From assembly GCA_025153775.1 (NCBI GenBank), contig JAOALC010000001.1, forward strand, positions 186,001 through 250,000: a stretch of 64,000 nt of DNA, read 5' to 3'. How positions within the stretch are numbered: the stretch's first letter is position 1; each line of letters starts with the position of its first letter. Made by a program: the position numbers and the translations under genes. Source of the DNA: SAR92 clade bacterium H231 (GTDB lineage: Bacteria; Pseudomonadota; Gammaproteobacteria; Pseudomonadales; Porticoccaceae). The notes below the pieces were generated by a model. It saw nothing but the letters and a program-made list of their open reading frames with translations. It was not told where the DNA came from and did not search any database. Positions 52,227-64,000 of the stretch are shown piece by piece.

Positions 52227-53780
52227 TCAAAGTCCAACTATGGATTTAATCGCCTGGTAACCGGGCTTTAAATGCCCATACATTTTTTTATACACCTTAT
52301 TGTAAAGTTCATTGTAGATATGCTGATTGGCAGGTACAGGCTCAAAGCGATCTGCTACATGGGTCATCTGCGACACTGCGGTCTCAAAGTCTGAGTGTAT
52401 GCCGGTGCCCACAGCAGTTGCAATAGCAGCGCCCAAACCAGAGGCCTCGTAGGTGTGGGGGCGCTCTACCGGCATGCCAAAGATATCTGCAGTGATCTGC
52501 ATAATCTGATCACTCTGGGAGCCGCCACCGGAGACCACTAGGCGTCTGAGTGGTTTGCCGCTGCGTTTTTCGAGTAGCTCTTTGCCCTCACGCAGGGCAT
52601 AGGTAAGCCCTTCAATCATGGCCCGGTACATATGGGCCCTAGTATGCACATCGCTAAAACCCACAATAGCGCCCTTGGCTTCTGGCCCGGCACTGTTGGT
52701 TCCGGTTCCCCAGTAGGGCTGTAATATCAGGCCCATGGAGCCAGCTGGTACGGCTTTTAAAAGCTCATCAAACAGGGTTTCAGGCGCTACCCCGGATTTA
52801 TCCGCTAGGTTTTGCTCATGTAGACCAAATTGCTGTTTAAACCAATTGACCATCCAATAGCCGCGCTCAACCATCACTTCCACATTGAATGATCCTGGAA
52901 TAACGCCCGGATAGGCCGGGTGGTAGGCTATAGCCTCCAAATATCTGTCGCTGGTGATATTCAATGTGGCCATGGTGCCGTAACTTAAACTGCCAGTCTC
53001 TGCATCCAGACAGCCAGTCCCTAGCACCTCACAGGCTTTATCTGAGCCGCTGGAGATAACTGCTAGCCCCTCTGGAATACCGGTCTGCAGTGCAGCTTCT
53101 GGGCTAATATGGCCCAGTATTTGTCCCGCTGCCTTTAACTCCGGAAGCATTTCGGCCCTAATGGGCACAGCCCGCCATTTCCAATCCGATGTCGCCGCCC
53201 ATCCAAGTTTTTTAAAATCGAAGGGCACATAGCCCACCTGGCTGGCAACAGCATCTGTGTACTGGCCAGTGAGTTTGTAGGTCTGATAGCCGGATAGCAG
53301 CAGGAACTTATCTACCTTATCCCAGAGTTGGGGTTCTTCCTGCGCCATCCAGCTAGCCTCTGCCTGCTGGTGTACCTGGTCGACAAAGCCTTTGGCTTTA
53401 ATCAGGCTCATCAACGCTGATTCCAATGCGCCAAGCTGGGGCTGAGTATCAACCTGTCGCTGATCCATATAGGTGATGGCGGGGCGCAGAGGTTGATTGT
53501 CGGAACCCATAGCAACAGCAGTGGCGCGCTGAGTAGTGATGGAGACACCTATAATCTTTTCGATTGGGAAATCGACCATAGGCCAGAGTTGCTGGCAGGC
53601 CTCGCACAATGAGGTCCAAAAATAGTCAGCCTCCTGTTCAGCCCAGCCGGGCTGAGTGGAAAAATAGGGCTCTATCTCGACTTTGCTTTTCGCAACCAGA
53701 GTACCCAGCTGGTCAAAGATCATTGCCCGGACGCTCTGGGTGCCATTGTCTATGGCTAAAAAATAGGCCGGTTTATTCAT
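52227..53780 (-). CDS. FGGY-family carbohydrate kinase
   Basis: 517 aa, ASKHA kinase. N-terminal phosphate loop FLAIDNGTQSVRAMIFD (about 6-22), YMDQRQ substrate-side motif, GTGTNSAGPEAKG, and the C-terminal FGGY signature-like VVSGGGSQSDQIMQITADIFG. Sequence alone does not tell glycerol from other polyols or sugars; it is not an obvious GlpK. Start at ATG 53780 with GGTGG upstream. It is the last gene behind the AGPS-like and GlpD-like genes on the minus strand, which points to a three-carbon polyol or derivative. Confidence 0.88.
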   Translation of the reverse strand: MNKPAYFLAIDNGTQSVRAMIFDQLGTLVAKSKVEIEPYFSTQPGWAEQEADYFWTSLCEACQQLWPMVDFPIEKIIGVSITTQRATAVAMGSDNQPLRPAITYMDQRQVDTQPQLGALESALMSLIKAKGFVDQVHQQAEASWMAQEEPQLWDKVDKFLLLSGYQTYKLTGQYTDAVASQVGYVPFDFKKLGWAATSDWKWRAVPIRAEMLPELKAAGQILGHISPEAALQTGIPEGLAVISSGSDKACEVLGTGCLDAETGSLSYGTMATLNITSDRYLEAIAYHPAYPGVIPGSFNVEVMVERGYWMVNWFKQQFGLHEQNLADKSGVAPETLFDELLKAVPAGSMGLILQPYWGTGTNSAGPEAKGAIVGFSDVHTRAHMYRAMIEGLTYALREGKELLEKRSGKPLRRLVVSGGGSQSDQIMQITADIFGMPVERPHTYEASGLGAAIATAVGTGIHSDFETAVSQMTHVADRFEPVPANQHIYNELYNKVYKKMYGHLKPGYQAIKSIVGL

Positions 53781-53803
53781 AACTGCCACCGTTATTATTA
53801 GTT

Positions 53804-55405
53804 TTACAGGTTATTTTTGTGGTCAGGAAAATAGTAAAAACGCTGCCAAATATCCTGGTAGCGGCTGAGCTCAGACTGCCACTGCTGCTGGTCCCAGCCC
53901 AGTTCGGTCATGCAAATCTCTCTGACCGGCGCAAATATCTCAGAGCCGCCATCGGCCAGACACATGCCCAGCCTAGTGCGGCGCAGCAGTAGATCATCTA
54001 GATGCTGCACCTGCTCATGGCGCGCCGCCCAGCGGCATTCCGCCAGACAAAATTGGGTGTCGCCAATGGGCCTGCGCTCTTCGCTGCTAGCTTCAGCCAA
54101 GATGGTTTCTGCGCTATCTCCGTAGCGTCCCAGCAGGCGCTGCCCCCAGGCTGGGTTATCTGGTACCAGAGTTGCTGCATCAATAGTCGGCGCACTAAAC
54201 ACATTGTCAGCATCAAAGGCCGCAGGCGCAGGTAGCTTGTCAGCCGCAGCTTCCAGCGCATCCAGCGCAATCAATCTAAAGGTGGTGAGCTTGCCGCCAC
54301 TCACTGTAATCAGCCCATTGTCTGACCAGGTGGCATGATCGCGGCGCTCTTTTGAGGGATCCTTGGCATCTTCAGAGCCTATAACCGGACGCACGCCTGC
54401 CCAGGTAGAGATAACCTGTGCGCGGGATAAAGGGGTCTGGGGGAATAGGGCATTAAAGCCATCGAGTAAATATTGAGTTTCCTCGGAAGAGATGCTGGCC
54501 TCAATATCCAGATCTTCGTCGTGATCCAGGTCTGTAGTGCCGATCACCGTGGTACCCTCCCAGGGATAGACGTAGATACCACGCTTATCCTGGGGATGTA
54601 ATGAGGTCAGCACATCAGTCACAGGACAGAAACTTTTGGGGATAATCAGATGGCTGCCACGCAGAGGCCGCACGCGCTTTTCTGGATTGAGCTGGTTGCG
54701 CAAATTATCTGCCCAGGCACCTGTGGCATTAATCACCACTGGCGCATTTAACTCTATGCTGTTGCCCTGTTCCGCGTCCTCCACAGCCACGCCACTGACC
54801 TGATCATCAGTGATAAGCAGCTTGCTGACTTTGCAGTAGTTAAGTGCCTGGCCACCCTGGGCCATGCTCTCTTGCAGAACCCGAAGCACCAGTCTCGAGT
54901 CATCGACCATGGCATCTGTGTAGTAGCAGGCGCCTTTTAGGTTCTTAGTTTCTACACCAGGGAAATGCTTGGCCAGCGCCCTGTTGTTGCAGTAGCGATG
55001 GTCGCGAATTCGGGCTAAAAAATCATAGATGGTCAGAATTACGCTCATGGCAAAACGGCCTGGGAAGTTGCCCTTGCCCAGGGCAAAGTAAAAAGCAATG
55101 CGATCTACCAGGCCTGGCGCTTCCCTGAGAAGGCGCTCCCGCTCCTGCAGAGAATGTTTAGTCAGTTTGATATCGCCGGCGGCAAGATAGCGCAGGCCGC
55201 CATGGACCATTTTGGATGAGCGGCTAGAGGTGCCCCAGGAAAAGTCCTGTTGCTCAAGTAACAGAGCCCGATAGCCGCGGCGCACAGCCTCGCGCAGCGC
55301 ACCGGCACCGGTAATGCCGCCGCCTACAATAATAATATCCCAGTGGAGAGATTTTCCCCCGCGCATTTCTGCCAACAATATTTCCCGCGGACTACACTTA
55401 TTCAT
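53804..55405 (-). CDS. Glycerol-3-phosphate dehydrogenase/oxidase (GlpD-like)
   Basis: 533 aa FAD enzyme. Dinucleotide motif IIIVGGGITGAG (about 25-36), the GlpD motif SSRSSKMVHGGLRYL, the catalytic region PLRGSHLIIP, and a C-terminal helical DAO_C domain (about 400-525). GlpD enzymes oxidise glycerol-3-P to dihydroxyacetone phosphate and pass electrons to quinone at the membrane. The ATG is 4 bases after the AGPS-like stop. As neighbour of an alkyl-DHAP-synthase-like protein it may supply or consume DHAP-type substrates. Confidence 0.9.
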   Translation of the reverse strand: MNKCSPREILLAEMRGGKSLHWDIIIVGGGITGAGALREAVRRGYRALLLEQQDFSWGTSSRSSKMVHGGLRYLAAGDIKLTKHSLQERERLLREAPGLVDRIAFYFALGKGNFPGRFAMSVILTIYDFLARIRDHRYCNNRALAKHFPGVETKNLKGACYYTDAMVDDSRLVLRVLQESMAQGGQALNYCKVSKLLITDDQVSGVAVEDAEQGNSIELNAPVVINATGAWADNLRNQLNPEKRVRPLRGSHLIIPKSFCPVTDVLTSLHPQDKRGIYVYPWEGTTVIGTTDLDHDEDLDIEASISSEETQYLLDGFNALFPQTPLSRAQVISTWAGVRPVIGSEDAKDPSKERRDHATWSDNGLITVSGGKLTTFRLIALDALEAAADKLPAPAAFDADNVFSAPTIDAATLVPDNPAWGQRLLGRYGDSAETILAEASSEERRPIGDTQFCLAECRWAARHEQVQHLDDLLLRRTRLGMCLADGGSEIFAPVREICMTELGWDQQQWQSELSRYQDIWQRFYYFPDHKNNL

Positions 55406-55409
55406 GGAT

Positions 55410-57023
55410 TTACTCAGTATCAGGTAGTAGTTTGCCGGGATTCATCTGTCCCCTGGGGTCAAACAGTTCGCACAGGTTATTAATTGCAGCAATGCCAAGC
55501 GCTCCTTTCTCTGCCGGCAGATACTGGCGATGGTCTGCCCCTACACCATGCTGGTGACTTATGGTGCCGCCGCAGGCAACAATCTGTTCGGCACCAGCTG
55601 CCTTAAGTTTATGCCAGCGCTGCAGTGCTTGCTCATAGCTGTCGCCAAAGCGATACACATAGGTTGTATAGATACTGGAACCCTGCCTATAGACATGGCT
55701 GAGGTGGGTGTAGGCATGTACCTGTTCTCCCTCATCCGCCAAGCCTGTGCGAATAGCCTGCTCAATACTCTCCATTGATTCTGTTACCCGAGACCAGTCA
55801 ACTGCAGTCTCCATGGTATCCACAGCATAGCCAGCAGAACCCAGGGGGTCGCGCACATAGGGCGCGCGAAAACGACCATGGGCCCAGTTATCACCAAGTC
55901 CCGATTGATCTGCCACAGCACCCTGGCTGGCACAGATTTCCAGAGCTGTTGCATGGTTAAAATCACATTGTTTCTGGCTGCCAGTTACTGCAAAGGTCAT
56001 CATTACCTTGCCTGAGCCTATGCCTTTTTCTGCCAGCGAAGCTTCAAGTGCTGCCACGCCCGCGGTATTTTCGCCTGCGCCCATATGCAGCAGACTTATG
56101 GTTTCCAGTGGATTGCTCAGGCGCACCATAGATAGAGCGACACGCTGCTGCACCAGTTCTCTGGCCGCAGTTAAGCCGGCGTCCCAGGATGGGAAAAATG
56201 CTACTTGAAATTGCTCTGCCTGAGGGACTGGGGTTACGCGCACCACAACCTCAGTAATAATACCCATGCGACCCTCGGAACCCAGAACCATTTCGCGGAT
56301 ATCTGGCCCCGCAGAGGATGCTGGAATGGTGGGGATATCCATAGTGCCCTTAAGGGTCTCCATACTGCCACCGGCAAATAATGCTTCTATACGGCCATAG
56401 TGCAATGACTGCTGGCCGCTGGATCTACTGGCAACCCAGCCACCTACAGTTGATAGCTCCCAGGATTGAGGGAAATGCCCCAGGGTAAAGCCCTCGGCCT
56501 TGAGCTGAGCTTCGATTTCTGGGCCAGGGGTTCCGGCTCCAAATCTGGCCAGTTGACTTTCTCGGTCGAGAGAAATCAGTTTATTCATTTTCGCCATACT
56601 GATGGTCAATATGGGACGATCGCTGGCATTGGGATTAATATGCCCAACCACAGAGGTGCCACCGCCATAGGGAATCACATCAATATTTTTATCCGCGGCA
56701 AACTGCAGTAACTCGCGCACCTGCGCGGATGATTCAGGCAGGGCAACTCCATCGGGGAAGGTGTCTACATTGCCGCTGTGCATGGCTAGCCAATCCGGCA
56801 GGCTCTGGCCGCGGGCATGGCGCACACGGGTCTCGGCATCTAGGCTGATCAGCGGATGGGCAGCCAATCGCGAGTCAGGCACTTTGGCAACCACCTCAGA
56901 TAGACTGGCTTCAGGCAGTGAAATAGAGGGCCCAACCAGCGCGCCCAGAAGCATTTTTAAGCCGCTGTTTAACTCCATACTCAAATCACTATTTTCATTC
57001 CCCCAGCCATTCCAAAGCCGCAT
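55410..57023 (-). CDS. FAD-linked oxidase, alkyl-DHAP synthase-like
   Basis: 537 aa VAO/PCMH-type flavoprotein. FAD-binding region with VIPYGGGTSVVGHI, followed by GHFPQSWELSTVGGWVASRS and MVLGSEGRMGIITEV. The C-terminal cap has THLSHVYRQGSSIY and GTISHQHGVGADHR (SHQHGVG 489-495). This order matches alkyldihydroxyacetonephosphate synthase (AGPS), whose motif is THHHGVG; here the middle histidine is Gln. Glycolate- or lactate-type oxidases of the same superfamily are the alternative. ATG 57023 has AAAGG upstream. It heads a minus-strand run with the GlpD-like and FGGY genes, divergent from araC. Confidence 0.85.
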   Translation of the reverse strand: MRLWNGWGNENSDLSMELNSGLKMLLGALVGPSISLPEASLSEVVAKVPDSRLAAHPLISLDAETRVRHARGQSLPDWLAMHSGNVDTFPDGVALPESSAQVRELLQFAADKNIDVIPYGGGTSVVGHINPNASDRPILTISMAKMNKLISLDRESQLARFGAGTPGPEIEAQLKAEGFTLGHFPQSWELSTVGGWVASRSSGQQSLHYGRIEALFAGGSMETLKGTMDIPTIPASSAGPDIREMVLGSEGRMGIITEVVVRVTPVPQAEQFQVAFFPSWDAGLTAARELVQQRVALSMVRLSNPLETISLLHMGAGENTAGVAALEASLAEKGIGSGKVMMTFAVTGSQKQCDFNHATALEICASQGAVADQSGLGDNWAHGRFRAPYVRDPLGSAGYAVDTMETAVDWSRVTESMESIEQAIRTGLADEGEQVHAYTHLSHVYRQGSSIYTTYVYRFGDSYEQALQRWHKLKAAGAEQIVACGGTISHQHGVGADHRQYLPAEKGALGIAAINNLCELFDPRGQMNPGKLLPDTE

Positions 57024-57274
57024 ACTGTTCACCTTTATAGATATTATTTTTAGTTTAAAGGCATAGAAAAAATGCCCGTTGGTGACTAAACTCTGACAAT
57101 GTTAAGGGCCAGACAGATACCCTAAGCAGCAGAGTCAAGTCATACTATAATCATTGATCTTTATAATAAAGCGGTGGTTGAAATGATCACTGTCGCAGTA
57201 CGACAGGGCAGTCACCATTTCGGTCATTCAAAGGTCGGGTACAGGTATTTAGTGACAGGATAACGAACAGATAT

Positions 57275-58297
57275 ATGTTGAACACCAGTGGCGATAGCCT
57301 GGCTTCAGTGCCCGCTATTAATCAATATCTTAAATCGGCACAGGCTTGCGGGGTAGATTATTTCCCTCTGCTTGAGCAGGTCGGTATAGATGTGGAAATA
57401 TTGGCGGACAATAATAAACATATCCCCGCAGCTGCAATGGAATATCTGCTGGAGTTACTTATAGATGCAAGCGGTGACCAGTGTTTTGGTCTGCACGCCT
57501 CTAGGTTTATTGAGCCTTGGTCCTATTCGGTACTGGGCTATATCTGTATGAACTGTTCTACCCTGCGCATGATTCAGGCCAAGATTCCTATCTATGAAAA
57601 AATTGTCGGTGATATGGGGGTGACCAATGTAACCGTTGCCGGTGGTTTTGCCCTGCAGAGCTGGCATTGCAAATTCGATAGCCCCCAGGCCAAACGCCAT
57701 GAGGTTGAGCACGTGCTGGGCTCATGGGTGACCTATGCGCGCAACTTCCTTAATTTTGAACCCCATGATGAGGTGTGGCTTGAGCATGAACCACCCACTG
57801 ACCCAGCTCTGCTGACGGACTATGCCGAGGTGTTTGGTTGCGAGGTTTTATTTAATCAGCCTTCCAGTGGCCTGCGCATCCGGGAGTCGAAGCTGGATAT
57901 GCCTCTGCCTCAGGCCAATGAAAAGCTGCTGGAGATGTTACTTGAACACGCCACAGTGCTGCTGGCAGAGATTACTCAGCACCAGCTGGTATCAGATCAG
58001 GTAAAGAGTTTGCTGCGCCTAATGCTTAAGCAGCAGACGCCCTCCAGCGCAGTAATTGCCGAAAAACTGGGTATAAGCAGTCGCACTTTGCAGCGCAAGC
58101 TGGGGGAAGAGGGCACCCATTACAAAGATGTGCTCAATGAGCTGCGCCTGGAGTTGGCCCTGTATTATTTGAAAAACACCCAGCTCAATCTGGAGAGTAT
58201 TGCCTATGAGCTGGGCTATGCCGAGGCGCGGTCTTTCTATCGCAGCTTTAAACAGTGGACTGGCCGCACCGCAGGTTCTTACCGCAGCGATCACTGA
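57275..58297 (+). CDS. AraC family transcriptional regulator
   Basis: 340 aa. N-terminal Arabinose_bd-like sensor domain (about 20-205, PF12625 type, as in OruR/ArgR-like regulators) and a C-terminal double helix-turn-helix (about 240-335: KLGISSRTLQRKLGEEG and ESIAYELGYAEARSFYRSFKQWTG). It is divergent from the AGPS-GlpD-FGGY run across 242 bases that hold two TATAAT sequences (57146-57151, 57162-57167), so local control of that run is likely. Its stop abuts the convergent epimerase stop with no gap. Confidence 0.92.
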   Translation: MLNTSGDSLASVPAINQYLKSAQACGVDYFPLLEQVGIDVEILADNNKHIPAAAMEYLLELLIDASGDQCFGLHASRFIEPWSYSVLGYICMNCSTLRMIQAKIPIYEKIVGDMGVTNVTVAGGFALQSWHCKFDSPQAKRHEVEHVLGSWVTYARNFLNFEPHDEVWLEHEPPTDPALLTDYAEVFGCEVLFNQPSSGLRIRESKLDMPLPQANEKLLEMLLEHATVLLAEITQHQLVSDQVKSLLRLMLKQQTPSSAVIAEKLGISSRTLQRKLGEEGTHYKDVLNELRLELALYYLKNTQLNLESIAYELGYAEARSFYRSFKQWTGRTAGSYRSDH

Positions 58298-59275
58298 TTA
58301 TTTAATAAGCCCCTGTTCCTGAGCCCAGAGTTTAGAGTGCTGCATACCTTCCTCAAATGGCATCTCTGGCTTCCAGCCCAGTATTCTCTCTGCTTTGGCT
58401 ATGCTAAACCAACTCTTGGTGCACAGCTGAACCACAGTTGCTGTGGAGGCTTCATTTACTCCACCGGTGAGATTGGCAATTTTGGTAGCCACTGTGGCTG
58501 CGATTAGTGCCAGCCTGGTGGATACAGCCAGAGGCCCAGATTTATTCATCCAGCTGTAATGATGGCTAAAGAACTCCCTGGTGGTGATATAACCCTCACA
58601 GGAAAGGTTAAAAATTTCCCCTCTGGCCTCTTTGGTGGATACAGCCAGAGCAATACCACGAATAAGATCGTCTATATAGATAGGGCGGAAGAATCCCTCA
58701 CCTTTGGCCGGCAGCATAAACTGTCCTTTGTTAATGGCTTCTATAGGCAGGATGACCCAGGGGCGGCTGCCGGGGCCATAGACATCTCCCGGGCGAATAA
58801 TTACTAGCTCCATGGCACTGTTGGCGGTAGCTGTCAGCACTGCATGTTCGGAAGCCAGTTTGGTTAGCACATAGCTGCCGCCATCTGCATGAACTGGCTG
58901 AGTTTCATCTAGCTCTCCCTGTGCCGAGTTGCCGTAAGCCACTACGGAGGAAATGTGCACAAAGCGCCGCACCTTATATTTTTCCGCTGCGGCAACCAAA
59001 TTGCCTGTAGCCTCCACATTGACTCGCCACATATCCCCATCTGGGATTGAATTGGATACCAGTGCTGCAGTGTGAATGACTACATCAGCATCTTTGAGTT
59101 GCTGGCTTATGGTCTCTGGTTGGGCAATATCGCCCTGAATAATATCCTCACCATTGCCGCAGAGGTCGACGCCTACCACCTCAATACCCTGTGCCTTGTA
59201 GTGGTGCATCAGTTGGTTGCCAATAAAGCCATTGGCGCCGGTAATCAATACTTTTTTGGGTAGTTTCTGACCCAT
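58298..59275 (-). CDS. NAD-dependent epimerase/dehydratase family protein
   Basis: 325 aa extended SDR. Cofactor motif ITGANGFIG (about 11-19), acidic residue after strand 2 (VVGVDLCG) favouring NAD, and the catalytic YxxxK as YVLTK. The C-terminal substrate domain (about 200-320) resembles 3-beta-hydroxysteroid dehydrogenase/isomerase-like members. AAAGGA lies about 9 bases before the ATG. It is 20 bases downstream of the SDR gene, so they form a pair. Substrate unknown. Confidence 0.85.
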   Translation of the reverse strand: MGQKLPKKVLITGANGFIGNQLMHHYKAQGIEVVGVDLCGNGEDIIQGDIAQPETISQQLKDADVVIHTAALVSNSIPDGDMWRVNVEATGNLVAAAEKYKVRRFVHISSVVAYGNSAQGELDETQPVHADGGSYVLTKLASEHAVLTATANSAMELVIIRPGDVYGPGSRPWVILPIEAINKGQFMLPAKGEGFFRPIYIDDLIRGIALAVSTKEARGEIFNLSCEGYITTREFFSHHYSWMNKSGPLAVSTRLALIAATVATKIANLTGGVNEASTATVVQLCTKSWFSIAKAERILGWKPEMPFEEGMQHSKLWAQEQGLIK

Positions 59276-59295: not shown

Positions 59296-60099
59296 TTATT
59301 GTGCGGAGAATTGGCTCAGATTTTTGCGATAAAAACTGCCAGCAATTTTGGCCAGTGCCATTTTTGAAAACAGATGGGTAATGGCTGCCGTAAACCGATT
59401 AGAGAGGCCCGGAATCCATAGGGCTCTGCCCTTAAGGCAGGCATCAATGCCCTGTTCTGCCACTTGAGATGCTGACTGCATCATGCCTGCAGGTATGGCC
59501 AGTTTGGCTCCTTGATCAGGGTTATCCATCATTTTGGTCGCCGTATAACCTGGGCAGAGTGCAGTCACTGTAATTCCTGTGCCTGCAGCATTGAGCTCAT
59601 CGTGCAGCGCCTGGGAAAAGGACAGCACAAAGGCCTTGGTTGCCGCATAGATATTTTGGTTAGGGATGGGCATCCAGCCAGCCAGCGAGGCTACATTGAG
59701 TATATGGCCACCCTGTCTGGAGGCCATATCATTGGCAAATAGGTGGCTGAGCGATGTCAGTGCCAGCATATTGACGGTCATCATTTTTTCCTGGTCAGCC
59801 AGACTGAGGTCGGTAAAAAAACCATTGTGTAGCAGCCCGGCGTTATTGATCAGGAAATCCACCTCCAGCCCCTGTTTTTGGGTGGCTTTAAAAAGAGTTT
59901 GGGCTGCCTTTGCCTTGGATAGATCGCAACTGATTACTGTGCATTTAATCCCATGTTCTGCCACCAGAGATGCGCTGATTTCATTGAGCACGGCCTCGCG
60001 CCGTGCCACCAAGACAAGATGATAGCCGCGGCTTGCTAAAACCTTACAGAACTCTAAGCCTATGCCGTCAGAGGCGCCTGTTACTAATGCTGTAGTCAT
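59296..60099 (-). CDS. Classical-type short-chain dehydrogenase/reductase
   Basis: 267 aa. Cofactor motif TGASDGIG (7-14), NNAG, catalytic Ser in LNVASLAG and YAATK. An arginine pair (VARREAV) after strand 2 suggests NADPH preference. The C-terminal part (about 230-267) is hydrophobic/basic and could touch the membrane, as in DltE/DHRS7B-like reductases of lipid substrates. In eukaryotic ether-lipid synthesis an SDR reduces alkyl-DHAP, which makes the nearby AGPS-like protein notable. AAGGGGAA is just upstream of the ATG. It lies 14 bases after the DUF3604 gene. Confidence 0.88.
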   Translation of the reverse strand: MTTALVTGASDGIGLEFCKVLASRGYHLVLVARREAVLNEISASLVAEHGIKCTVISCDLSKAKAAQTLFKATQKQGLEVDFLINNAGLLHNGFFTDLSLADQEKMMTVNMLALTSLSHLFANDMASRQGGHILNVASLAGWMPIPNQNIYAATKAFVLSFSQALHDELNAAGTGITVTALCPGYTATKMMDNPDQGAKLAIPAGMMQSASQVAEQGIDACLKGRALWIPGLSNRFTAAITHLFSKMALAKIAGSFYRKNLSQFSAQ

Positions 60100-60113: not shown

Positions 60114-62390
60114 TTATTTTTTATAGTCGACGAAAATTGGTGAAGACCAGGCCCGCTGGCTCCGGGGTTCATGGCATTCGTCATTGATATCGACCCTGTA
60201 GTCGCCAAAGCACATATCTGTATCCACCGCCTGGCCATTTTCGTCAAAGCTGGTGCGCAGATTGCCGCCATTGATCGTGGCGACCGGCTCTTCCAGTGCG
60301 CGCACATAGTAGAGAGCGTCGCGCCCCTCTGCGACAAAGTCAGGATCTTCAAATTCGATAGTGCAGCCATCTGCTGAGGGCGCGCATTCAAATACTCTCC
60401 AGCTATCTTCGATCAGAGCTGGAATTGATTCGCCAGCCACTGCTTGGGGGCGAATTTTAATCACTTCGATACGATCAATTTGATAGCGCTCATCCGATGG
60501 GTAGTAGCATTCACCCTGAGCCATTTTTTGCAGATGCTGTTTTTCCAGCGCATTGACCACATAGTCAGGGCAGCCGGGCAACTGTTTAAACGAGCCAATG
60601 GCTTTGGCGCGAAAGCGCGGTATTGAGTCTATAGTCACCTCACTGCCCATGGGTATGACGGTGTCAGCCTGCAATAGGTCAAACCACAGCAGCATGCGGT
60701 GGCCACTGGTGCCATAGACTTCACGCCGCTGCATAGCATCCCAGATCGCACCTCGACTGCGGCCCTGAGAATGAACTGCGGCCAAGCCACCCACATTTAG
60801 GAATGAGGTGGTGCGCTCAAATTCCGAGGCAAATAGCTTGGCGCTAACCGGGTCAATCTGGTCGGCGCGCAGTGATTGCGAGGCATATTCACTTCTGACT
60901 GCGGAGCTGGCAAAGATAGTTTCCCAAAACGGGCTGCGCACGCCGGTGACATCCGAGGTGTTTAGGCGCTGTTGCTGCTTAAAGCCATGACCGGCTCGGG
61001 CCGAATGGGTATCTGTGGAGCCGATAAAGCCCCAGCGATAGCGCAGTGGGTTTTCAGGGTCGTCGTGATTCTGTATGGCCAGACCATATTGCACAGACTT
61101 TTGTGGACGGTAGTTAAAGGCGGGTAGATAAACATCGCGCGCCTGTCCTGCGTCCAGCCAATCTTCCGCCGTACTGCCGGGAACCGTCATAAAGCCCTGA
61201 ATACCATCTACCTGAACAAAATTATGTCGAGCCTCCTCGGCTCTAGCATCACAGTCTGCTGCGCTATTATCTTCCACCAGACAGCGCTGGCGAATAATCT
61301 CGCCGGCCTGCCAGCAGCTGGGCAGATAGTTTGGCTGGGGCTCTGGGCAGACCCATTCCCCGGCATTGTTGAGTTCTCGCACAGCAAAATCTCGAAACTG
61401 TTCGGAGTTGCCATGACCGGAATAAACTTCAATTAAGCGGGTTTTTTCTTCATCGGTATTTTCAGCGGTTAGCTGATGACTCCAGTTCGAATTGGGCGGG
61501 CTGTAGAATCCCCAGGCTGTACCATGGGGCACTACCATATTGTCAAAACCCCATTCATCGAGTTTGGCAAATAGCTCACCGGGGGTGGCTGCGGTTTCAT
61601 AACATTCCAGCGGCAGATCCGGGCTGGCTGCTTGGGGATCACAGGCAGGTACGGCAGCCATCTGCATCACCCAGTCATTATAAGAAGCGTAGTAATCGCG
61701 ATGGCGCGGGTCCAATAGCCCCAGCAGACTGGACTGTTTTCCCGAGCCGGAACGAGCGGCCACAGTGGCAACCCCTACGCCAACAGAGGCTATAGGGCGC
61801 GCTGGCAGCTTGTCGATACTGTCATCTTTAAACAGCACATTGTGGTGGCCGTAATGGTTTGCTGCAGTACCTCCTACCTGGGTCCACTCCCAGCCTACAA
61901 AGGCAGCAATATCCGGGTTGGCGGGGTCTCCTGCCAGGCGGTTGCACTGCTGCACTGAGTCAATGCCATCGCGCCACTGGCGCGGGGTGAAGCTCTCCGC
62001 GTGATCGGTAAGAAAGTAGAAATCCAGCTGTGACACAAAACGCGCATAGTCACAGGCATAGGCGGGTGGATAGGCTCCGGAGGCCCCGTGCATCATGGGT
62101 AGGCTATACATAAAGGCATCGGCCGAGTTGGTGGTATGTACATGGGTATCACCAAACAGTATCTGCTTATCGTCTCTTGTGGCGCCCACGGCTCGCTGGG
62201 CTATCACTTCTGAGGGCAGGCTGGCCTCGGTGACCTGACCAAACTCCAGAGGAGTTTCGCTCCAGGCCTGATCCGGGTCGGGGAAGTAGCCAGGCAGTAG
62301 TCTGTAAGCCGCATCTGGCGCTATGCCAGAGAAGAAGATAATGGCGACCGCAGCCACCCCTGCGGTGATCATTAATACCCGTTGCAACAT
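60114..62390 (-). CDS. DUF3604 protein, predicted PHP-like metallohydrolase
   Basis: 758 aa. N-terminal membrane anchor or signal (about 5-25), so it acts outside the cytoplasm. Conserved polar motifs appear in order: GDTHVHTT (H83, H85), FLTDH (D129, H130), VGWEWT (E168), GHHN (H182/H183), VPHGT (H289), EVYSGHG (E321, H327), GSTDTH (D460, H462). That order (HxH, DH, E, H, H, DxH) is what PHP phosphoesterases use to bind metals; this is my inference, the family is formally of unknown function. The rest, including the beta-rich C-terminus (about 560-758), has no recognised domain. HupE-like permease and SurA-N-like genes precede it on the same strand. AGAGGA lies before the ATG. Confidence 0.85.
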   Translation of the reverse strand: MLQRVLMITAGVAAVAIIFFSGIAPDAAYRLLPGYFPDPDQAWSETPLEFGQVTEASLPSEVIAQRAVGATRDDKQILFGDTHVHTTNSADAFMYSLPMMHGASGAYPPAYACDYARFVSQLDFYFLTDHAESFTPRQWRDGIDSVQQCNRLAGDPANPDIAAFVGWEWTQVGGTAANHYGHHNVLFKDDSIDKLPARPIASVGVGVATVAARSGSGKQSSLLGLLDPRHRDYYASYNDWVMQMAAVPACDPQAASPDLPLECYETAATPGELFAKLDEWGFDNMVVPHGTAWGFYSPPNSNWSHQLTAENTDEEKTRLIEVYSGHGNSEQFRDFAVRELNNAGEWVCPEPQPNYLPSCWQAGEIIRQRCLVEDNSAADCDARAEEARHNFVQVDGIQGFMTVPGSTAEDWLDAGQARDVYLPAFNYRPQKSVQYGLAIQNHDDPENPLRYRWGFIGSTDTHSARAGHGFKQQQRLNTSDVTGVRSPFWETIFASSAVRSEYASQSLRADQIDPVSAKLFASEFERTTSFLNVGGLAAVHSQGRSRGAIWDAMQRREVYGTSGHRMLLWFDLLQADTVIPMGSEVTIDSIPRFRAKAIGSFKQLPGCPDYVVNALEKQHLQKMAQGECYYPSDERYQIDRIEVIKIRPQAVAGESIPALIEDSWRVFECAPSADGCTIEFEDPDFVAEGRDALYYVRALEEPVATINGGNLRTSFDENGQAVDTDMCFGDYRVDINDECHEPRSQRAWSSPIFVDYKK

Positions 62391-62430
62391 AATGGCGTCC
62401 TCTGTTTATGGTTATAAATTCTTTTTATTA

Positions 62431-63660
62431 TTAGCCAATGGCTGGGCCATAGCTTCGGGCTACAAACCAATATAACCCTAAACCGCAGAGCAGGGCAGAG
62501 CAAACCTCTGCTGCTGCAGCGGTAAAGTCTCTGTAGCGCTTTAGCCTTAGATAGCAGATCCAGACTGCAGCAACAATCAGTAGCTGCCCCAACTCTACTC
62601 CTATATTGAAACCTAACAGCGCAGGCCATAGCTGTTCGCTTGGCAGGCCTACCTCTTGCAAAATAGCAGCAAAGCCAAAACCATGAATAAGGCCAAAGGC
62701 GAGGCTGAGCAATGGTCTTATCTGAATAGTGCTGCGGCCATGGTTAGCAGGCAGATAACTCAGAGTGAATATAATCAGGCCGACAAAGCTAATAACCGGC
62801 AGTGTTGATGGCACCAGCTGACTCACAGATAGCATTGTCATCAGTGCCAGAATCGCTGTGGCCCCATAGGCTATTTGTCGATTGACTCCAGTCCGGCAGC
62901 CAATGTTTTCGGCAGCTACCAGAGCTATGGTAAAGCCTATTAGGGCCTCCACAATGGCCGTTTCAGGGGTAACCCAGCCCAGCACTGCCAGACTAAGGGT
63001 AATACTGTGGCCCAGAGTAAAACCGCTCACCAGCCAGATTACATCGCGGAGACTGCGCAGCATCAGCAGCAGGGCCAGCAGAAAAGCTATATGGTCTAGG
63101 CCGGTAAAGATATGCTCCATACCCAGCGCTGTGTATTGCAGAAAAGCTTGCCGGAAACTGGTCGACCAGTCGGAGTCACCGGTTTCTATAACTTGTTGTT
63201 GGCGACCTTCGGTAAATAGATACTCCAATGGCGCTCGGTTATCTATCCCAATGCGCGCGTAATGGATATGAGATGATACAAGGCTAAAAAAGCTGCCAAT
63301 TTGAATTTCTGGAGCTATATCTTGCAGAGCTCTGGCACAGCTATAGGTGGCTGCAATTCTCAGATAGCCCGGTTCTGCAGTCATAGCTTGCAATGGAGCT
63401 CTCGCTGAACACTGGGCTCCTGCTTGCCTGACCTCTATAGTTTTTTCCAGATGGCTGATCAGAGAGGCCTCGTTGCTGAGATTATCATTAGGTTGAAACC
63501 TTGTGGCCTCTCGCTCTTTGAGGGTAAATAGCATACTGAGATTTTGCTGATCTATGCTCCACGAAGAAAACGACTGGCTGCGATTATGGGCTTCCGCAGG
63601 CAAGATTATTGCGATGCTCAGCAGGATAATGGTTGAGAAAAGCCGTCGCAGGGGGATCAT
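62431..63660 (-). CDS. HupE/UreJ family permease with extracytoplasmic N-terminal domain
   Basis: 409 aa. Signal peptide (LFSTIILLSIAIILPAEAH), an extracytoplasmic beta-rich domain (about 25-155), then six or seven membrane helices with the HupE signature HIFTGLDHIAFLLALLLML (H-x3-G-x-D-H) and a later LIHGFGFAAIL containing another histidine and glycine motif. HupE/UreJ proteins carry nickel or cobalt; this fused branch is uncharacterised. ATG 63660 overlaps the stop of the preceding gene (ATGA), which fixes the start over an upstream alternative at 63675. It lies 40 bases before the DUF3604 gene and is likely co-transcribed. Confidence 0.87.
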   Translation of the reverse strand: MIPLRRLFSTIILLSIAIILPAEAHNRSQSFSSWSIDQQNLSMLFTLKEREATRFQPNDNLSNEASLISHLEKTIEVRQAGAQCSARAPLQAMTAEPGYLRIAATYSCARALQDIAPEIQIGSFFSLVSSHIHYARIGIDNRAPLEYLFTEGRQQQVIETGDSDWSTSFRQAFLQYTALGMEHIFTGLDHIAFLLALLLMLRSLRDVIWLVSGFTLGHSITLSLAVLGWVTPETAIVEALIGFTIALVAAENIGCRTGVNRQIAYGATAILALMTMLSVSQLVPSTLPVISFVGLIIFTLSYLPANHGRSTIQIRPLLSLAFGLIHGFGFAAILQEVGLPSEQLWPALLGFNIGVELGQLLIVAAVWICYLRLKRYRDFTAAAAEVCSALLCGLGLYWFVARSYGPAIG

Positions 63661-64000
63661 TGTATGGCAATCCATCGAATATCTGCGCTGTTGCGAAGCT
63701 GAGTCAGGTACTCTTCAAATCCGGAACTGATATCGCTATCTGTGGCAGTGGCTGTGGAGAGAGATTCAATATTCAGCCCAGCAAGCACAGATTGTAGGAC
63801 GGCGGCGCGGAGTTTTTGGTTGGTTCTCAATAACTCTGTATCTGAAGCATATTGAACCAAAAGCTCCTCTTGAATAAGCCTCTGCAATACCAGCTCCCGG
63901 TCTTGATCATTTAGTTCACCGCGCTTGCCGCTGGCTAACAAACTGAGTGCCCTTTGGTAATCTAACTGGCGGATAGGGCTGTGATTGACCCTGGCCACAT
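63657..64000 (-). CDS. SurA-N-like chaperone domain protein, 5' end outside window
   Basis: The frame runs off the right edge; about 113 residues are visible to the stop. The start VARVNHSPIRQLDYQRAL matches the beginning of mature SurA/parvulin-type proteins (VAxVNGxPI), then comes LNDQDRELVLQRLIQEELLVQ, the conserved SurA-N helix, and then almost at once FEEYLTQLRNSADIRW, which normally ends such proteins. The parvulin isomerase domain usually between these parts is missing. A signal peptide would lie outside the window. The stop overlaps the HupE-like start, so the two are coupled. Confidence 0.7.
   Translation of the reverse strand, partial: VARVNHSPIRQLDYQRALSLLASGKRGELNDQDRELVLQRLIQEELLVQYASDTELLRTNQKLRAAVLQSVLAGLNIESLSTATATDSDISSGFEEYLTQLRNSADIRWIAIQ

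Follow-up and report, generated by a model that had tools for sequence, protein, structure and literature searches.

Gene run around the DUF3604 gene

In a 64,000-nucleotide stretch of DNA from the SAR92 clade bacterium H231 (contig JAOALC010000001.1, positions 186,001 to 250,000; hereafter the window), we analyzed a minus-strand gene run that encodes a DUF3604 protein together with a HupE/UreJ-type membrane protein and a SurA-like protein. The initial annotation had read these three genes as a possible metal-dependent surface hydrolase system, and the list of open reading frames (ORFs) places all three where that annotation had them. We found that the DUF3604 protein is a divergent member of its family with the ligand order of PHP metallohydrolases, that the association of DUF3604 with HupE and with a PpiC-type folding protein is real, and that a kinship of DUF3604 with the PHP superfamily is supported at the level of sequence profiles. 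The genes of the run are the following, with coordinates beyond the window end given on L007, the locus read past that end:

60114..62390, minus strand: DUF3604 protein of 758 amino acids (ORF; PF12228 match, motif conservation, profile link to PHP, N-terminal hydrophobic segment)
62431..63660, minus strand: HupE_UreJ_2 membrane protein (PF13795 match; the longer ORF is 62431-63675)
63657..64000, minus strand: short SurA_N-like protein (SurA_N_3), 160 amino acids in full, running off the window end up to L007 6140
L007 6140-5658, minus strand: the same SurA_N-like protein as a complete gene, 160 amino acids
L007 6997-6140, minus strand: PpiC-type protein of 285 amino acids, beyond the window end, in the run upstream of the SurA-like gene
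L007 9810-7228, minus strand: TonB-dependent receptor, beyond the window end, preceding the PpiC gene
59296..60099, minus strand: short-chain dehydrogenase, next in the run after DUF3604
58298..59275, minus strand: NAD-dependent epimerase / 3-beta-HSD-like protein (ORF, domain match, kept in related loci)

The minus-strand order is thus TonB-dependent receptor, PpiC, SurA_N-like, HupE_UreJ_2, DUF3604, short-chain dehydrogenase and epimerase. The PpiC and SurA-like ORFs share one base, the SurA-like stop and the HupE start overlap as ATGA, and gaps of 40 and 14 bases flank the DUF3604 gene. We compared 24 related loci. In the 20 whose sequence continues beyond 300 bases upstream of DUF3604, HupE always precedes that gene; in the 15 long enough to show the region ahead of HupE (L016 begins just before the SurA-like gene), PpiC and the SurA-like gene are always there. 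A short-chain dehydrogenase lies downstream of DUF3604 in 23 of the 24, the remaining locus ending within DUF3604, and a TonB receptor stands ahead of PpiC in 8. This genome carries four DUF3604 genes, and a second, canonical one is also accompanied by PpiC and HupE, in a different gene order. Scans for promoters and terminators gave signals not above those of shuffled sequence.

The initial annotation had named an exported chaperone-like protein as the third partner. A SurA_N-like gene does lie in the run (SurA_N_3 scores 23.1 bits on the window-cut gene, below the cut-off of 27.2, and 27.5 bits on the complete 160-amino-acid gene), but it is a short companion recognized solely in window-type loci, and the widespread folding partner is a membrane-anchored PpiC-type protein encoded just outside the window. 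This PpiC protein has one N-terminal hydrophobic segment and a diverged sequence; the Rotamase domain scores 25.1 bits in the window lineage, just under the cut-off of 27, and 49.5 bits, above it, in the PpiC protein beside the own-genome paralogue (L008).

The HupE/UreJ-type permease with an HxxxGxDH metal motif, also claimed at the outset, is clearly present: PF13795 (HupE_UreJ_2) matches at 151.5 bits against a cut-off of 24.5, and HIFTGLDH occupies residues 188-195 of the longer ORF. Translation probably starts at an internal ATG five codons into that ORF, a start favored because of the ATGA overlap with the preceding stop and because of the alignment. The protein has a likely signal peptide, a mature N-terminal histidine (H30 of the longer ORF) and an external part of about 150 residues; HNRSQSF is found where the signal stretch ends in 18/18 window-type HupE proteins with an N-terminus (cleavage site placed by eye, two of them with an extra histidine just before it). 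A histidine in this place is the hallmark of the Ang-1 domain, which binds Cu and Ni on HupE/UreJ-2 proteins (PMC12537917). H188, D194, H195, H223 and H331 are invariant in 21 aligned HupE sequences, and the mature N-terminal histidine is kept in at least 90%.

Motifs and profile-level PHP kinship of the DUF3604 protein

The 758-amino-acid protein matches DUF3604 (PF12228) at 101.2 bits in a Pfam scan, against a cut-off of 20.4, and all of the residues singled out by the initial annotation (H83, H85, D129, H130, E168, H183, H289, D460 and H462) are present. In an alignment of 43 DUF3604 proteins (A2), H83, H85, D91, D129, H130, E168, H182, H289, E321, D460, H462, R546 and R565 are each conserved in 42-43 of the 43, a conservation beyond chance because it holds in proteins whose identity to the first row falls to 21%. 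One of the named residues did not stand: the fourth histidine is H182 (42/43) and not the adjacent position 183, which is histidine in just 6/43. D91 (42/43), which the first reading overlooked, is likely a ninth metal ligand, and E321 is conserved in 43/43.

The PHP motif order HxH, (D)H, H, DxH is found as H83/H85, D129/H130, H289 and D460/H462. Moreover, the putative ligands H83, H85, D91, H130, E168, H182, H289, D460 and H462 are predicted to match the PHP ligands in order. Nine histidines and aspartates are given as the metal ligands of the PHP superfamily (PMC6616362). A single N-terminal hydrophobic segment suggests that the protein is periplasmic and membrane-anchored; on this ground the proposed 'surface' location was dropped, and with it the reading as a simple surface enzyme. 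To the C-terminal part we could assign no known fold.

To place the catalytic part, we compared deep profiles with hhalign (42 DUF3604, 30 TrpH/YciV-type PHP and 13 sequences of a third family, whose members are exported, PHP-like and carry motifs such as HNHTTCSDG). The trimmed DUF3604 catalytic part aligned with the TrpH/YciV-type profile (expect value, E, 3.3e-5, probability 72%) in a way that brings HxHT and TDH into register; the third family aligned both with DUF3604 (E 3.8e-8, 95%) and with TrpH (E 3.1e-7, 93%, 177 columns). Against the controls (HupE, PpiC, short-chain dehydrogenase and TonB-dependent receptor), DUF3604 gave E 0.32-0.62 and the third family E 0.53-0.96. The third-family profile further matched PDB entry 2anu (TM0559) with E 1.1e-4 and with the blocks HxHT..SD/TDH, HP.R and SD.H in order, in a search in which plant peptide ligases (E 0.5) outranked PolX PHP entries (E 1.1). 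One third-family member matches PF02811 with E 0.0029, under the cut-off. Matches to this family (E <= 0.001) occur in 14 of the 244 genomes of the order; we also observed that 4 of 5 scanned members (of L134-L146) have no Pfam match. The PHP link offered by the initial annotation therefore holds at profile level, both directly and through the third family, and we consider hydrolase activity of DUF3604 probable.

Several observations pull in the other direction. D91 lies one residue farther from HxH than is usual in PHP proteins, and the Pfam scan of the window protein returned DUF3604 only, with no PHP (PF02811) match. The DUF3604-TrpH alignment spans just 44 columns (motifs I and II), and the trimming behind it relied on the GDxHxH motif, only members with GDxHxH and xDxH being kept. 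With shallow untrimmed profiles, E against TrpH was 0.036 for canonical DUF3604 and 0.0035 for the window type, and against DnaE-type PHP 0.07 and 0.31, respectively; controls in this comparison ranged from 0.03 to 0.9, some of them no worse than the canonical DUF3604-TrpH value (PpiC 0.069; third family vs. TonB-dependent receptor 0.03). In the 2anu match the first block alone is individually significant, and neither the window protein nor the DUF3604 profiles A2 and A3 brought up anything relevant when searched against PDB sequences. AlphaFold models were unusable, with a mean predicted local distance difference test (pLDDT) score of 43 for the window protein (22-row alignment A1) and of 35 for a DUF3604 protein from a viral contig (25-row alignment A4, the only one that the partial row L029 entered); shallow alignments are probably to blame.

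Association of DUF3604, PpiC and HupE across genomes

DUF3604, PpiC and HupE stand side by side in 14/18 regions phylum-wide, and in 12/13 genomes (12 of the same phylum plus one of the same class; same-order genomes, and weak or fragmentary same-class matches in G523, G599 and G012, were excluded, and the four regions of G445 and G577, which belong to the same genus, are two near-duplicate pairs). The recurring three-gene set that had been proposed is thus borne out by its neighborhoods, and the outcome named as its refutation, that the trio is seldom found in one place, does not hold. Among 143 genomes of the class, DUF3604 was found in 15 and HupE_UreJ_2 in 41, with the two within ~5 kilobases (kb) of each other in 6/15 (G000, G010, G025, G038, G087 and G112, read by eye). 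In G012 (L070:7037-8023), a single open frame combines a DUF3604 lipobox and N-terminus with the C-terminal half of a HupE_UreJ_2 protein; a deletion within a DUF3604-PpiC-HupE operon appears to have left it behind.

Among the 244 genomes of the order, DUF3604 occurs in 71, many with several matches, and HupE in 146. HupE is present in 66/71 DUF3604-positive vs. 80/173 DUF3604-negative genomes (Fisher p 5e-13), or in 65/71 vs. 62/173 when strong HupE matches only are counted. We then read 28 order loci (L035-L062; one listed match per genus, for 28 of the 35 genera with matches, and the best listed except in g154, which has a better one in G327). HupE was in view in 8 of them, with PpiC too in 7 of those, and one more locus has PpiC at a contig end.

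As a control, we took 20 HupE regions from DUF3604-negative genomes, 2 of which had no HupE ORF by profile; PpiC lay within five ORFs in 0/18 with a recognized HupE, a count from which a very divergent PpiC could escape. Since 9/18 of the control HupE proteins lack HxxxGxDH and the set is therefore mostly of other subfamilies, this result indicates that only a particular kind of HupE is linked with PpiC, and is not proof of a need for DUF3604. In 20 hand-picked, hence non-random, HupE loci of the order (L095-L114), PpiC was found in 19, DUF3604 in 7 (one in two pieces) and an exported PHP-like protein in 2, where it adjoins the HupE-PpiC pair and DUF3604 does not appear. After exclusion of 13 near-identical or duplicate loci, the distances between sequence pairs, taken for each of the three proteins, correlate with one another (r 0.80-0.86 in 38 triads; r 0.53-0.66 in the 30 triads left without the window-type clade; 0/2000 permutations as high in either case), a correlation confounded by common descent.

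The association also extends to mobile DNA. The canonical DUF3604 paralogue has matches in 78 plasmid records, the window protein in none. Of these 78, four annotated records were examined: DUF3604, a peptidylprolyl isomerase and HupE/UreJ occur together in 3, all on alphaproteobacterial plasmids (S. meliloti, Rhodobacter and Rhizobium), and the fourth lacks this combination. On a conjugative S. meliloti plasmid (L183, NZ_CP021803.1 86796-104538), two DUF3604 genes, PpiC and HupE have type IV secretion and relaxase genes on either side. Scans of viral contigs gave one full and one partial DUF3604. A virus-classified IMG/VR contig (L151:6104-9131) carries a canonical DUF3604 with a divergent AraC-like gene; nearby genes resemble those for a ParB/methylase and a large terminase subunit, and this DUF3604 is possibly phage-borne cargo.

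Proposed role, alternatives and known systems

Beyond the epimerase, the window holds a second group of genes, a GliR/AGPS-like/GlpD/kinase cluster of the kind that forms a glycerolipid regulon in Pseudomonas:

57275..58297, plus strand: AraC-type regulator, best NCBIfam match GliR (NF050186), position conserved
55410..57032, minus strand: FAD-linked oxidase with a GlcD-like NCBIfam assignment; it diverges from the AraC gene, an arrangement also seen for PA3026 and PA3027
53804..55405, minus strand: glycerol-3-phosphate dehydrogenase-like protein (GlpD; NF008899 at 284 bits, cut-off 360)
52227..53789, minus strand: FGGY-family sugar/glycerol kinase (top NCBIfam match xylulokinase, 248 bits, cut-off 380)

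The regulator scores 351 bits against the GliR equivalog NF050186, below its cut-off of 570, and the gene order matches that of the GliR locus; the FAD-linked oxidase is presumably AGPS-like. Of 14 related loci whose sequence continues for 3.5 kb or more past the epimerase, 11 keep the block of regulator, FAD-oxidase, GlpD and kinase. Near the 47 DUF3604 loci surveyed (one of which, L070, is a DUF3604 remnant only), TonB receptors occur at 11, short-chain dehydrogenases at 9, sulfatases at 8 and AraC genes at 5, as raw counts with no background rate; the sulfatase-like genes, all of one sequence cluster, lie within ~8 kb of DUF3604 (L037, L041, L048, L051, L060, L072, L110 and L113), and 7/8 were checked and match PF00884. 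The substrates of DUF3604 probably vary among loci. Upstream of the TonB-dependent receptor (L007:11707-12573), tandem near-identical overlapping reading frames are followed by two tRNA genes.

We propose that the locus encodes a phosphodiesterase of PHP type that is exported, is served by two dedicated proteins, one for folding and one for metal handling, and acts here on glycerophospho-compounds; we put the probability of this reading at about 0.5. Within the PHP metallohydrolase superfamily, DUF3604 would form a branch whose members are exported, crossing the inner membrane unfolded by means of a signal peptide, a lipobox or an N-terminal anchor; the membrane-anchored PpiC/SurA-type protein would assist their folding, and the nine putative ligands H83, H85, D91, H130, E168, H182, H289, D460 and H462 would form a multinuclear metal site. 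HupE_UreJ_2, with its mature N-terminal histidine, would capture or move a transition metal for DUF3604, and for the delivery of metal to the enzyme itself we would give slightly less than even odds. PpiC and HupE together would be a service pair able to serve several DUF3604 copies. In the Porticoccaceae lineage, DUF3604 would most likely cleave phosphodiesters of glycerol compounds imported by the co-encoded TonB-dependent receptor, and the products would feed the adjacent GliR-like, AGPS-like, GlpD and kinase cluster; that the substrate here is precisely a glycerophosphodiester is a lead that we think on the unlikely side. More tentatively still than the locus-level proposal, PpiC-HupE may be a portable periplasmic folding and metallation module for exported PHP hydrolases (DUF3604 and the third family), plasmid-borne too and serving several copies, with DUF3604 a large unrecognized class of periplasmic phosphodiesterases used here for glycerophospholipid-derived compounds; we would bet against this wider version, if not heavily.

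The proposal has observations to contend with at several points. As to the association, 20/28 of the order loci show DUF3604 without HupE in view and 19 show neither HupE nor PpiC, some of them on short contigs. As to the substrate, the glycerolipid block is absent in 3/14 related loci (L025, L027 and L030), where a TonB receptor is found instead, and no TonB receptor was seen upstream in the related loci L024, L025, L027 and L030. As to the metal, some triad HupE proteins, including that of the own-genome paralogue, are without the mature histidine, and a PDB sequence search found no relevant solved structure for the N-terminal external part of HupE (presence of 9GCE in the searched copy unchecked). 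Finally, the characterized His1-type Ang-1 domain of a HupE/UreJ-2 protein prefers Cu (dissociation constant 74 nM) and Ni (220 nM) (PMC12537917), a mismatch with the Zn reported for the exported phosphodiesterase Sb-PDE (PMC5460133).

The roles might also be reversed, such that the hydrolase serves the permease: the TonB receptor would import a metal-ligand complex, DUF3604 would cleave the ligand and HupE would import the freed metal. A TonB receptor indeed stands ahead of the operon here and in 8 related loci, and near 11/47 surveyed loci, and the relatives of HupE are Ni permeases; the Ang-1 article proposes metal capture and uptake (PMC12537917). We nonetheless find this scavenging unlikely: with a one-sequence profile, the receptor was recognized in 2/12 order-sample triad loci and in 0/14 phylum-sample triads, 8 loci (137,008 bases) yielded no Rfam riboswitch at gathering thresholds, only two tRNAs being matched, and several DUF3604 copies beside one HupE are a better fit to a service role for HupE. 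To a similarly small chance we assign a membrane-embedded pair for maturation or quality control of exported PHP enzymes, in which HupE no longer moves metal; 10/19 of the hand-picked PpiC-HupE loci have neither DUF3604 nor an exported PHP-like protein in view, and 9/10 of those genomes carry DUF3604 elsewhere, yet the invariant metal motif and the conserved mature histidine of HupE speak for a metal role.

Somewhat less probable again is that DUF3604 acts on sulfate or carboxylic esters instead of phosphate esters, as the sulfatase-like genes near 8/47 loci might suggest; that figure is a raw count with no background rate, and the PHP enzymes in the literature consulted act on phosphate esters (PMC5460133). 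General operon packing without functional coupling, in genomes rich in all three families (HupE in 146 and DUF3604 in 71 of the 244), is largely refuted by the recurrence of the trio in several gene orders, on plasmids, in other classes and in 14/18 phylum-wide regions, by the co-occurrence of HupE and DUF3604 in the order (Fisher p 5e-13) and by the finding of PpiC near HupE in 0/18 recognized loci from DUF3604-negative genomes, a set in which most HupE proteins belong to other subfamilies.

DUF3604 is widespread (71/244 genomes of the order) yet nearly absent from the literature: in open-licence articles it is named only in a mutant list, PF12228 was not found, and the same literature yielded no description of a DUF3604-PpiC-HupE module, a search from which the slash in the spelling HupE/UreJ may hide papers. 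The new elements here are how strong and how widespread the association is, a ligand set that is probably complete, and a pointer to the substrate. The PHP placement, the named ligands and the recurring partners together make the function of DUF3604 testable by standard metal and phosphodiesterase assays, and if PpiC-HupE does mature or metallate exported PHP enzymes, their metal acquisition becomes open to experiment.

Among known proteins, the PHP protein L117 of this same genome, which we take to be of the TrpH/YciV type, resembles DUF3604 in its order HxH, TDH, E, HP, DxH and in the profile match; unlike DUF3604 it has ~280 residues, no signal peptide that we could see and no C-terminal extension. 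TM0559 (PDB 2anu; 255 residues), presumably a PHP protein and entered in the PDB as a hypothetical protein, is a solved protein that matches the profile of the third family, the exported one that adjoins PpiC-HupE, but not the DUF3604 profiles. The Ang-1 HupE/UreJ-2 'anglerase' shares with the window HupE the PF13795 membrane domain, a signal peptide, a mature N-terminal histidine and an external domain (PMC12537917). Sequence comparison found no homology between the external domains, including that of the Ig-like, Cu/Ni-binding RbAng-1a; the neighbors in the Ang-1 survey are DUF4198, indigoidine-synthase-like and PfkB genes, and 'DUF3604' and 'peptidyl' have 0 occurrences in the main text of that article (PMC12537917). 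Sb-PDE of Sphingobium sp. TCM1 is likewise an exported Zn phosphodiesterase of the PHP superfamily with four PHP motifs; it differs in its 441 residues and its reported PF02811 assignment, and the available text makes no mention of a DUF or of PpiC/HupE neighbors (PMC5460133).

The closest parallel to the neighboring cluster is the GliR regulon PA3027-PA3023 of Pseudomonas aeruginosa, in which an AraC gene also lies divergent from FAD-oxidoreductase, GlpD-like and FGGY-kinase genes (PMC8151288). There, the PA3026-3024 operon goes up together with a phospholipase gene when GliR is overproduced, and deletion of the regulator or the operon gave no growth phenotype under the conditions tested (PMC8151288). 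The phospholipase C gene of that regulon is located elsewhere in the genome (PMC8151288), whereas here the DUF3604 operon directly adjoins the regulator; by analogy, an exported PHP-type phosphodiesterase would take the place of the phospholipase at this locus.

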